This document shows positions 6,152 to 8,907 of a DNA stretch of 31,584 bases, piece after piece. Made by a program: the position numbers and the translations under genes. The stretch's first letter is position 1. Every line of letters begins with the position of its first letter. The DNA is from a virus. The notes beneath the pieces were generated by a model. The model was not told where the DNA came from. It did not search any database and worked only from the letters and a program-made list of their open reading frames with translations. Location of the stretch: IMG/VR virus record IMGVR_UViG_3300031643_000006, positions 1-31,584 of that record; one strand, 5' to 3'.

Positions 6152-6547
6152 ATGGCAAAGCTAAGTGCAAAGGACAGGGAAAGGCTTGAGCAGTTGAGGG
6201 CAAGTGTGCTCGATGAAAAGGGCGACTACAGGGTAGATGCAGACTTTGATGAGTTGCAGGAACTGGCAAAATTAGAGGCAATGGCCGATGATAAATCTAT
6301 TCCAAAGGTGGTAAAACCTGAATCTACTCAAAAAGAGACACACGTAGTCGGCCCGAAAAAGAAAGCGCCGAGGATTGTTAAGAAGTGGCTGGAGCGTGGC
6401 TTTGATTATTACGGCGTGGATAAGAACGGCACCTTTATTTTATACAATAAAGACGAAGAGTTGTTTTACCGGCTGAACAGAGACCCGAATTTTGTAGATG
6501 CTTTAGCAGAAGGGCTGCCTGCCGAATATCTGGAGGGCTTGAAATAA
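6152..6547 (+). CDS. Small phage protein of unknown function
   Basis: The product, about 131 residues, begins MAKLSAKDRERLEQLRASVL. I chose the ATG at 6152 because AAAGGGA lies about ten bases upstream and the protein start is sensible. In-frame ATGs at 6101 and 6134 are alternatives. The protein is charged, with a helical N-terminal third (DRERLEQLRA, DFDELQELAKLEAMADD), a lysine/proline-rich middle and a compact C-terminal part (WLERGFDYYGVDKNGTFILY). The gene ends in a TAATG overlap with the next small gene. Its place between portal and MuF suggests a minor head protein, but no family is recognised. Confidence 0.65.
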   Translation: MAKLSAKDRERLEQLRASVLDEKGDYRVDADFDELQELAKLEAMADDKSIPKVVKPESTQKETHVVGPKKKAPRIVKKWLERGFDYYGVDKNGTFILYNKDEELFYRLNRDPNFVDALAEGLPAEYLEGLK

Positions 6548-6672
6548 TGGCTAATACAAGGAAAGATAATAAAAAACTTCAATTCAAAGAACTTGTAGCT
6601 GTGCCGAGAAAGGTAGCTAAGAGAATAACGGTGTTGGCTGAACAGATACGGTACGAAAAGAGAAGAAGATAA
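6547..6672 (+). CDS. 41-residue basic protein
   Basis: A short frame begins at the ATG of a TAATG overlap with the preceding stop and ends three bases before the MuF start codon at 6676. The product (MANTRKDNKKLQFKELVAV, then PRKVAKRITVLAEQIRYEKRRR) is strongly basic, probably a single amphipathic helix followed by a basic tail. The exact fit between two genes and the coupling overlap support translation. No function can be assigned. Confidence 0.55.
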   Translation: MANTRKDNKKLQFKELVAVPRKVAKRITVLAEQIRYEKRRR

Positions 6673-6675
6673 AAA

Positions 6676-8583
6676 ATGAACAGTCAAGAAACAATCAGAA
6701 AAGCGGTTCTCAATAGTCGCAAGAATTGGCTGCATTATACGGTCAAGCAGGAAAGGGAGATATACGCACTGCTTTCGGGTGCTGCTGATAAAATCGAGAA
6801 GAGGCTTAATCAATATGCAGTAGAGGGGAAATTGCCACCAGGACGATTGATAAGTCTTTTAGGCGCAAATACAAAACCTAATCCTGATAGTATTCGAGGA
6901 ATAATCAGGCAGTTAAGACCCGGACTGAACGGGCATATAAAAAAGGGTATGAGGCAAAGTGTTAGTTTTGGGATGCAGACTTATATATATTCGTTGCAGA
7001 ATATGAAGCTGCCGAAAAATGCGAAGCTGGGTATTGGTTCAAGTTTTATCGGGGTGGATGGTAAGATAAGGACTTATGATGTCGGCAGAGAGCTATGGAA
7101 AGCCAGCGTGTGGGGCAGAATCAATTCGGATGCAATGGATTATCTTTTGCGTACTCAATATGGCAGAATAGCATTTTCACGAAAGGTGTGGGACATTACG
7201 TGGGATGCGGAGAAGCTAATCAGAAACAGGATAAATACTGGAGTGCTTTTGGGTGAAAGCGTCGATAAGGTCGCAAGGGATATAAAGCCATACTTGGCAG
7301 AACCGAATGCAAGGTTTCATCGGGTGAGAAAAGATGGTAAATTGGTATTGAGCAAACCGGCAAAGGCATATCACCCGGGCCGCGGTGTTTACAGGTCGGC
7401 ATATCGAAACGCACGGAGATTAGCAAGAACAGAATACGCAAGGGCTTATCACGAAGGAATGGTCAGATACGTCAAAAAGAAAACGTGGCTCAAAGGTTTT
7501 ATCAGTAGAGTTGGTAGTGATAATCCGGCTCCTTATGATGAGTATGTGGACGGTAAGTTTTTCCCAAAGAACAATCCGCCTATGATTCCATACCACCCGA
7601 ATTGTGTTTTAGGTAAGACGATTGTTCAAGCAGGTGGTAATATAACTGGGGCAATAAGCCGTTGGTATGAAGGTCAAATGATTACCTTTAGCACGGCCAC
7701 TGGCCAACAACTTACCTGCACGCCCAACCACCCTATATTCTCTAATGGACAATTTATTGCTGCGAATAAACTCAATGAAAGCAACAGCGTTGTCTGCGTC
7801 AATGCTGCCAATGTGCCCATTGTCAACAGATATAATATACAAAAACCAGCCAGAATTCAGAATATAGTTAGTGCGTTGCATAAAACGAGCTCCATGTCTT
7901 CCCGCCCAGTGAAAATTTCCACCGAAGACTTCCACGGCGATGGGATAGGTAGCAAGGTCGCAATTGTAAGCTCCAATAGCTTTTTGAGGAATAGTTTGCA
8001 CGCCTCTATTTGCGAGCAATTTTCGCAGTTGTATTTCCGCTTCAGAGATAATGCCCGATTTATAAGGTTGTTTCTCGATTGTTTGGGCGTGCCTGCATTT
8101 AGTTTCCCAGGAGACTTTCATCCCTCTGCGAACTTTATTGGCTCTTTTAGTCATTCGCCTTCTCTCTTCGATAGAATAATTACCAGAGCGAAGGAAATTG
8201 GCCTGTCTTTGCCTTCTGATTTCGGTTCCAGTTTCAACCAATCTTCGTCTGATGGTGCCACGATTAACACCAAATCTCTTAGCAAGTCGTTGTTCGGAAA
8301 ATCCCGATTTGTACAAAGCGATGATTTCACTGATAGGCAAGTCGAATCTATTCCAGCTACTTCTTTTGGGTTCCTTGATAGAATTGTCCATATTGAATCC
8401 TTTCACTTTAGTGGCTATGTTTATAATTTGGAAACTACTCAATCTTACTACTTCGCAAATGGAATTGCAACACATAATTGTATGTGTTATGCTGAACCTG
8501 TGTTTACAGAAGTGCCGAATGAAGAGCTTGATTTTGCACCAACGCAAGCGGAGTTTGTTAAAACTCATAAAATAGTGGCATAA
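6676..8583 (+). CDS. MuF-like (SPP1 gp7 family) head morphogenesis protein interrupted by an intein
   Basis: The 635-codon gene encodes a minor capsid/head morphogenesis protein that acts with the portal in early capsid assembly. The host protein is residues 1-309 joined to 602-635, giving 343 residues after splicing. The region NARRLARTEYARAYHEGMVRY (about 242-262) and the terminal YHPN|CMC block are the signature of the SPP1 gp7/MuF C-terminal domain, in which HPNCxC is the best conserved motif. The intein occupies residues 310-601 and splits that motif exactly before its first Cys. The gene follows a portal, as expected. Unspliced protein would have a disrupted motif, so splicing is probably needed for function. 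Confidence 0.92.
   Translation: MNSQETIRKAVLNSRKNWLHYTVKQEREIYALLSGAADKIEKRLNQYAVEGKLPPGRLISLLGANTKPNPDSIRGIIRQLRPGLNGHIKKGMRQSVSFGMQTYIYSLQNMKLPKNAKLGIGSSFIGVDGKIRTYDVGRELWKASVWGRINSDAMDYLLRTQYGRIAFSRKVWDITWDAEKLIRNRINTGVLLGESVDKVARDIKPYLAEPNARFHRVRKDGKLVLSKPAKAYHPGRGVYRSAYRNARRLARTEYARAYHEGMVRYVKKKTWLKGFISRVGSDNPAPYDEYVDGKFFPKNNPPMIPYHPNCVLGKTIVQAGGNITGAISRWYEGQMITFSTATGQQLTCTPNHPIFSNGQFIAANKLNESNSVVCVNAANVPIVNRYNIQKPARIQNIVSALHKTSSMSSRPVKISTEDFHGDGIGSKVAIVSSNSFLRNSLHASICEQFSQLYFRFRDNARFIRLFLDCLGVPAFSFPGDFHPSANFIGSFSHSPSLFDRIITRAKEIGLSLPSDFGSSFNQSSSDGATINTKSLSKSLFGKSRFVQSDDFTDRQVESIPATSFGFLDRIVHIESFHFSGYVYNLETTQSYYFANGIATHNCMCYAEPVFTEVPNEELDFAPTQAEFVKTHKIVA
7609..8391 (-). CDS. Antisense homing endonuclease nested in the intein (HTH plus Vsr/EDxHD-like nuclease)
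   Basis: A 260-residue gene runs opposite to the intein. Its ATG (8391) follows AAAGGA with a six-base spacer; the frame stays open upstream of the ATG, so that ribosome binding site decides the start. Residues about 18-51 form a helix-turn-helix (LPISEIIALYKSGFSEQRLA, then KRFGVNRGTIRRRL). Residues about 116-190 resemble the PD-(D/E)xK/Vsr-like fold: SEAEIQLRKLL (Glu117/119), YNCDLATYPIAVEVFGGNFH (Asp145, Glu154, His161), then a hydrophobic strand WFLYIISV. Residues 217-238 (REYRVVGRAGKLLASG) look like a trailing domain seen in such phage nucleases. It would cut intein-less MuF alleles so that repair copies the intein. Cleavage is inferred, not shown. The main alternative is a fortuitous open frame, which the ordered motifs make unlikely. 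Confidence 0.85.
   Translation of the reverse strand: MDNSIKEPKRSSWNRFDLPISEIIALYKSGFSEQRLAKRFGVNRGTIRRRLVETGTEIRRQRQANFLRSGNYSIEERRRMTKRANKVRRGMKVSWETKCRHAQTIEKQPYKSGIISEAEIQLRKLLANRGVQTIPQKAIGAYNCDLATYPIAVEVFGGNFHWAGRHGARFMQRTNYILNSGWFLYIISVDNGHIGSIDADNAVAFIEFIRSNKLSIREYRVVGRAGKLLASGRAKGNHLTFIPTAYCPSYITTCLNNRLT
8398..8403 (-). promoter_or_regulatory. Ribosome binding site of the antisense endonuclease gene
   Basis: Read on the minus strand, AAAGGA is followed by TTCAAT and then the ATG at 8391. This near-ideal Shine-Dalgarno lies inside the sequence coding for the C-terminal Hint half of the intein. It fixes the start of the antisense gene and shows selection for independent translation. 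A TATAAA that could act as a -10 element lies further upstream on the same strand (8420-8425), but no good -35 partner is seen. Confidence 0.7.
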
Positions 8584-8847: not shown

Positions 8848-8907
8848 AAAAAGGCGACTGATTGAGATGCAGTAAAAATACTGTGTTTTAGTCAGCCGCC
8901 TTTTTTT
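8848..8907 (+). terminator. Terminator-like double hairpin
   Basis: AAAAAGGCG-A-CTGA pairs with TCAG-C-CGCCTTTTT (one mismatch). A second hairpin, CAGTA-AAAA-TACTG, is nested in the loop, and the right arm runs into seven T residues. It separates the MuF gene group from the capsid maturation genes. The next ribosome binding site (AAAGGA) begins only about ten bases after the T-tract, as at the other hairpins in this region. Confidence 0.72.

Follow-up and report, generated by a model that had tools for sequence, protein, structure and literature searches.

An intein in a phage MuF-like capsid gene overlapped on the opposite strand by a gene for a predicted Vsr/EDxHD-type nuclease

Homing nucleases of the EDxHD (Vsr-like) class are exemplified by I-Bth0305I, which is encoded by a phage group I intron (reviewed in PMC3943268), and fractured genes with split inteins are reported to carry a free-standing Vsr-like nuclease between the gene halves (Dassa et al. 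2009). Homing genes that run antisense to their element are described in myxomycete rDNA group I introns, for example I-DsqI (PMC9548176), and the ShiLan domain is a hidden, out-of-frame HNH nuclease in a phage methylase (PMC11855218). The antisense homing genes of group I introns and the out-of-frame, same-strand nucleases are the nearest precedents for the locus presented here, in which an intein of a MuF-like minor capsid gene is overlapped by a Vsr/EDxHD-type nuclease gene antisense to it. An earlier note made from the sequence alone had proposed this arrangement, and that central claim held, with the role of the nuclease in mobilising the intein remaining presumed.

The window, by which we mean the whole stretch of 31,584 nucleotides of viral DNA that was analysed, contains the MuF gene between a portal gene upstream and a head-maturation protease gene downstream (Table 1). 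The intein forms residues 310-601 of the MuF reading frame, closes with VYNLE...ATHN followed by Cys+1, and matches PF14890 with 37.5 bits against a cut-off of 35.8. Three related contigs (L156, L157 and L158; 83-87% amino acid identity) encode an uninterrupted MuF protein of 343 residues that reads ...HPN/CMCYAEP... exactly at the intein junction (slash), with homology to the window on both sides, and these exact empty alleles therefore establish that both intein boundaries are right. Profile searches including Pfam and PHROGs gave no nuclease match in the sense frame of the intein, and the element is thus not an intein with an in-frame nested endonuclease; its nuclease sits on the minus strand. 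With Cys1, a TxxH block B, a terminal HN followed by Cys+1, a Hint profile match and exact empty alleles, 7603-8478 meets the criteria for an intein, splicing itself being inferred. The earlier description of a complete intein with Cys1, TPNH, HN then Cys and no endonuclease in its own frame held on the strength of the PF14890 match, the empty alleles and the absence of any sense-frame nuclease match. Downstream of the MuF gene, at 8858-8895, lies a terminator-like hairpin with a T run.

Table 1. Coordinates of the features of the locus, in positions of the window
Feature	Position	Strand	Basis
MuF-like minor capsid (head morphogenesis) gene with in-frame intein, 635 aa	6676..8583	+	PHROG head-morphogenesis matches; intein-less relatives are 343 aa
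N-extein, 309 aa, C-terminal end ...IPYHPN	6676..7602	+	77-78% DNA identity with intein-less alleles up to the junction
Intein, 292 aa: Cys1, block B TPNH, block F VYNLE, terminal HN	7603..8478	+	PF14890, 37.5 bits; exactly absent from L156-L158
C-extein, first residue Cys+1 (CMCYAEP...)	8479..8583	+	sequence; intein-less alleles
Block F (Y-VYNLE) region	8416..8433		His to Tyr in the window
Nuclease gene P0001, 260 aa, codon-complementary phase to intein	7609..8391	-	homologues, fold, substitution pattern, codon avoidance
Shine-Dalgarno GAAAGGA, six bases ahead of nuclease ATG	8398..8404	-	sequence
Helix-turn-helix (HTH) DNA-binding region, about residues 20-52	8236..8334	-	HTH Pfam matches; three helices with pLDDT about 97; HTH structures in structural match list
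EDxHD/Vsr-like catalytic core, about residues 117-211: E119, D145, E154, H161, R173	7759..8043	-	profile matches to 3r3p and 3hrl; Vsr and I-Bth0305I structural matches; conservation

The minus-strand gene starts at an ATG, codes over 7612-8391 and ends in a TAA (7609-7611) that pairs with TTA, the Leu3 codon of the intein; its codon position 1 lies opposite plus position 3, so that the codons of the two strands are exactly complementary. The mechanical minus-strand ORF begins further out, at 8568, and homology begins near the ATG of the 260-residue gene. A tblastn search with the 260-residue protein returned 122 GenBank phage records at E <= 0.01, with Gordonia, Pseudomonas, Salmonella, Klebsiella, Cronobacter, Mycobacterium, Aggregatibacter, Vibrio and others as hosts; homologues also occur in 276 stretches of a viral contig collection, and a plasmid collection gave two matches. 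The window nuclease contains no TTA, CTA or TCA codon, for which P is about 10^-3.6 given the codon usage of the window's own exteins. Because homologues, fold, substitution pattern and codon avoidance agree, the frame is not a product of chance, and it is a real protein-coding gene. Six other long minus-strand ORFs of the window had no PHROGs match, and a sigma-70 promoter scan near the minus-strand start of the window yielded matches at chance level only. The claims that this is a 260-residue gene with its own Shine-Dalgarno at a six-base spacing, and the only convincing minus-strand gene in 31 kb, both held, the latter on the strength of those six ORFs.

The fold assignment combines sequence profiles with structure prediction. 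A profile built from minus-frame proteins only matched PDB 3r3p, the catalytic domain of I-Bth0305I (E 3e-7), and the endonuclease-like protein 3hrl (E 8e-7); with this profile, Vsr itself (1cw0) fell short of significance by sequence (E 0.29). The single-sequence fold of P0001 was poor (pLDDT 42.9), and a usable model was obtained only with an alignment of relatives, from which AlphaFold2 gave a mean pLDDT of 88.4 and a pTM of 0.74. VIA-align ranked Vsr first for this model (Z 11.3, 114 residues, 2.8 A) and I-Bth0305I third (Z 10.2, 95 residues, 3.0 A), and aligned N-terminal residues 14-58 with HTH domains. Foldseek against the PDB was weak, with a best E of 0.017 (probability 1.00) for 3r3p, and the structural claim rests on the VIA-align Z-scores and the sequence profile. 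Among 83 aligned relatives, D145 and E154 are invariant (83/83 each), R173 is kept in 81, E119 in 79 and H161 in 70. In the 3r3p chain, Ala is aligned with both D145 and H161, and the exact EDxHD motif cannot be matched to it residue by residue. The MTES_1575 model was matched by 16 of the 23 members of the first set described below, P0001 itself falling below the Pfam cut-off, and some family members match DUF559 and antiphage models weakly. The model and profiles show a protein that joins an N-terminal HTH to a Vsr/EDxHD-type nuclease fold, with catalytic activity inferred. The earlier note had predicted the HTH, which held for residues about 20-53, and a Vsr/EDxHD-like core, which held for Glu119, Asp145, Glu154 and His161 and failed for Glu117, kept in only 9 of the 83 relatives. 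It had also stated that the proposal would fall if profile and structure searches found no nuclease fold; the fold is present, and this refutation was not met. In one relative (L163:2100-3189, on its reverse complement) the HTH part of the profile matches the nuclease ORF twice, marking an extra copy of that region.

Our searches showed that an intein with an antisense nuclease is a widespread family of more than 100 distinct, widely scattered phage sequences, which corrects the view of the locus as a one-off. The first set, of 23 sequences, comprised the window and 22 phages; none of them has a break in its minus ORF, which stood in the same phase, as read from coordinates, wherever the MuF-intein ORF was matched. 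The full 23-sequence profile was too diverse for collection scans and was replaced by subgroup profiles, with which IMG/VR scans added 123 loci (117 sequences after removal of identical ones); the opposite strand was fully open over the whole nuclease, always in the codon-complementary phase, in 122 of these, and the remaining one is a free-standing nuclease beside an intein-less MuF gene. Seven bacterial-genome loci have the same antisense arrangement, and the exteins of the family are MuF, VG15, minor capsid 2 or portal-MuF proteins. Searching with only the 67-residue N-terminal end of the sense intein found 80 loci, every one (80/80) with an antisense nuclease match. This query overlaps the nuclease C-terminus; most relatives were found through the nuclease or the overlapping intein segment, and mini-inteins without a nuclease may be under-sampled. 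Acinetobacter Obolenskvirus BUCT629 and L131 carry the nuclease as a gene of its own, convergent with MuF and immediately behind it. We considered whether these two could be a fractured gene with a split intein and rejected it, as their MuF gene is uninterrupted and lacks an intein, and the nuclease follows it. Apart from the free-standing case, the phage records that we looked at annotate only the sense frame; that of phage Snoke names the intein and lacks the nuclease. The PHROGs "head protein" family phrog_15127 seems to take in intein and linker as if they were capsid protein.

The start signals of the nuclease appear to be embedded in a splicing motif. Block F was recognisable in 99 inteins, and in 77 of them the residue ahead of the V-Y-N/D-L motif is His, encoded by CAT (68) or CAC (9); read on the other strand, these codons give ATG and GTG. 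Of the 77, 65 use CTC for the block F Leu, a codon that accounts for 24.5% of Leu in the exteins, and its complement helps to form a GAGG about eight bases before the start, as with TTCGAGGTTATAAACATG in the Jerseyvirus relatives. It is therefore likely that in most relatives the nuclease start codon and a GAGG Shine-Dalgarno are written in the complement of H-VYNLE, the true start not being proved locus by locus: nuclease homology begins near the block F codon in many loci and 30-100 codons further on in others. The window has Tyr in place of His (TAT, complement ATA) and has lost the GAGG Shine-Dalgarno, and its nuclease start has probably moved downstream to the ATG served by GAAAGGA.

The pattern of substitution indicates which strand is constrained in which part of the overlap. 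Across 20 pairs from different lineages, codon differences at plus positions 1, 2 and 3 number 2427, 1829 and 3734 outside the overlap, the usual wobble excess at position 3, and 1714, 630 and 1204 inside it, where the excess falls on position 1, the wobble position of the minus strand. This flip in periodicity is seen in 19 of the 20 pairs (chi-square on positions 1 and 3, P about 1e-66), as in ES2 and L106, which differ at 48/36/77 positions in the extein and 58/11/28 in the overlap; more weight attaches to the sign pattern than to the P-value, since not all pairs are from unrelated groups. In deciles 5-8 of the overlap, divergence at minus four-fold sites (0.43-0.48) is close to the synonymous divergence of the extein (0.433), and the sense residues are therefore nearly free there. 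Over deciles 0-1, where blocks A and B of the intein lie opposite the nuclease C-terminus, minus four-fold sites diverge by 0.12-0.13 and sense four-fold sites by 0.24-0.25, showing that both proteins are constrained and that the N-terminal blocks of the intein are truly dual-coded. The earlier proposal that the intein linker is a passive reading of the other strand thus held in part: the divergence pattern shows a linker passive over its middle only. In this phase both frames can stay open only if neither uses TTA, CTA or TCA, and these codons make up 0 of 3799 Leu/Ser codons in 116 nested nucleases versus 10 of 33 in the free-standing BUCT629 nuclease; since open frames were a criterion for the nested set, it is the comparison with the free-standing copy that is informative. 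The window, at about 7920-7960, and most relatives, at the same place, carry a conserved EDFHGDG-like sense motif in the intein linker that is the complement of the catalytic stretch around AVEV. Although this motif resembles a conserved intein motif, it is likely a shadow of the other strand.

Comparison of relatives also revealed signs of movement and of decay. The closely similar MuF genes of Kagunavirus Snoke and fEgEco06 have inteins at HPN/CRSTT and TST/CRARDG, each site being empty in the other phage. Several copies have lost all or part of the nuclease: L180 has six minus-frame stops inside an open intein of 350 residues, L206 a 188-residue intein with a truncated nuclease, and L223 and L235 have 191-residue inteins without the part between HTH and catalytic core. 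Such a series, in which the nuclease dies and the intein persists, is what a homing cycle predicts and likely reflects one, homing itself being inferred. The earlier note would have been contradicted by relatives that keep the sense linker and lack the antisense frame; no intact relative of this kind was found, and the few that have lost the frame are visibly decayed. In L228:3001-4200 a frameshift breaks both the sense intein frame and the nuclease, marking either a dead copy or a sequencing error. The window and L155 share an identical tract of 1616 bases (6877-8492) that includes the intein, and their differences cluster to either side of it; we set this tract aside as evidence of co-conversion, suggestive as it is, since ordinary mosaic recombination fits too. 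Between 6545 and 6672 the window (6546-6671) and this 99% relative (L155:2542-2996) differ in segment and in length.

We interpret the locus as a mobile intein with two functions on opposite strands, the nuclease being its homing enzyme, and assign this reading a probability of about 0.87. In this model the plus strand would encode a domain able to splice itself out of the MuF capsid protein, and the minus strand, in complementary codons, would encode the separate 260-residue HTH and Vsr/EDxHD-type nuclease, expressed independently of splicing. During mixed infection the nuclease would cut intein-less MuF alleles at the HPN/C insertion site, and repair off intein-bearing genomes would copy splicing and nuclease functions together. 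The data show an intein with an empty site and a minus gene that is truly coding, together with the class of its fold, its fixed association with the intein and its decay within open inteins; splicing, minus-strand transcription, cleavage and homing are inferred. Because of the family, the fixed association and the decay series, homing is the most likely function. The strength of this reading is limited by the lack of RNA, protein or cleavage data and by promoter matches in the window that do not exceed chance; independence of expression from splicing, which the earlier note had put forward, is likewise kept as an inference, without data on minus-strand transcription or cleavage.

The most sceptical alternative holds that the minus frame is a compositional ghost whose likeness to a nuclease arose by chance. 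This phase is indeed prone to spurious antisense ORFs, long complementary frames are common, and the window has other long minus-strand ORFs. Against it stand the homology, the fold, the conserved start signals, the improbable absence of TTA, CTA and TCA from the window nuclease and the lack of any family match for the six other ORFs; the inverted periodicity and the free-standing homologue already refute it, leaving this explanation all but excluded. More credible, yet still unlikely, is a real DNA-binding nuclease that is not a homing enzyme, perhaps a phage-exclusion or repair nuclease or a regulator living in the intein. The Vsr/DUF559 superfamily does include repair and restriction enzymes, and the weak DUF559 and antiphage matches of some members could be read in this way. 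However, the nuclease is tied to inteins of MuF-type genes in essentially all loci, a homing nuclease is among its nearest solved relatives by profile and by fold, and, in the manner of homing genes, it degenerates in copies whose intein is still open.

A further possibility is that the plus frame no longer splices, so that MuF is interrupted, the nuclease is the real element and the open plus frame is a relic. The nearly unconstrained middle of the sense linker favours this view, but the splicing blocks are conserved under sense constraint (the low minus four-fold divergence of the first two deciles), no intact nested copy has a plus-frame stop, the plus frame is open in decayed copies and the C-extein is in frame, making it very unlikely. 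The mobile intein with an antisense homing nuclease remains our preferred reading. A bolder version of it, which we would not yet favour, sees an old and widespread class of mobile element in which intein and nuclease co-evolved as one overlapping, codon-complementary pair with start signals in the complement of a splicing motif. If this were true, nuclease mRNA would be antisense to capsid mRNA, and the choice of strand would separate or antagonise nuclease and late capsid expression.

These results define an intein architecture without precedent in the literature searched, in phages that are easily grown (Salmonella Jerseyvirus, Gordonia, Pseudomonas). They also provide a large natural set of antiparallel overlapping genes in which both functions can be identified and constraint measured per strand, with natural decay series that show the effect of releasing one strand. 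Finally, they expose a systematic annotation gap, since the nuclease is nearly always missed and its antisense shadow seemingly stands in phrog_15127. No intein with an antisense nuclease came up in the full-text literature searched; precedents in older work on Vsr-like homing nucleases (Dassa 2009, Taylor 2011) are not excluded.

Comparison with described systems places the locus between several of them. Like inteins with nested in-frame LAGLIDADG or HNH endonucleases, it has a Hint domain in a conserved motif, a sporadic distribution, exact empty alleles and a nuclease between splicing blocks; unlike them, its nuclease is a separate gene on the opposite strand with its own start and ribosome-binding site, and overlaps the N-terminal splicing blocks. 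It shares with I-Bth0305I the profile and fold of the catalytic domain and the pairing of a DNA-binding module with that domain, whereas I-Bth0305I belongs to an RNA intron and the window nuclease is antisense in an intein, has its HTH at the N-terminus and shows only about 10-13% identity in structural alignments. The fractured genes of Dassa et al. (2009) tie the same nuclease class to inteins, but the intein of the window is contiguous and its nuclease antisense to it. In the I-DsqI type, as here, the homing gene runs opposite to the strand of the splicing element and is expressed from that strand (for the window, by inference), although the element there is an RNA intron, the homing gene is a peripheral insertion and the splicing element is not translated through it. 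The ShiLan domain resembles the locus as a mobile insert that is open in the host frame with its nuclease in another frame, and differs in that its nuclease is an HNH enzyme on the same strand, without a recognisable splicing domain.
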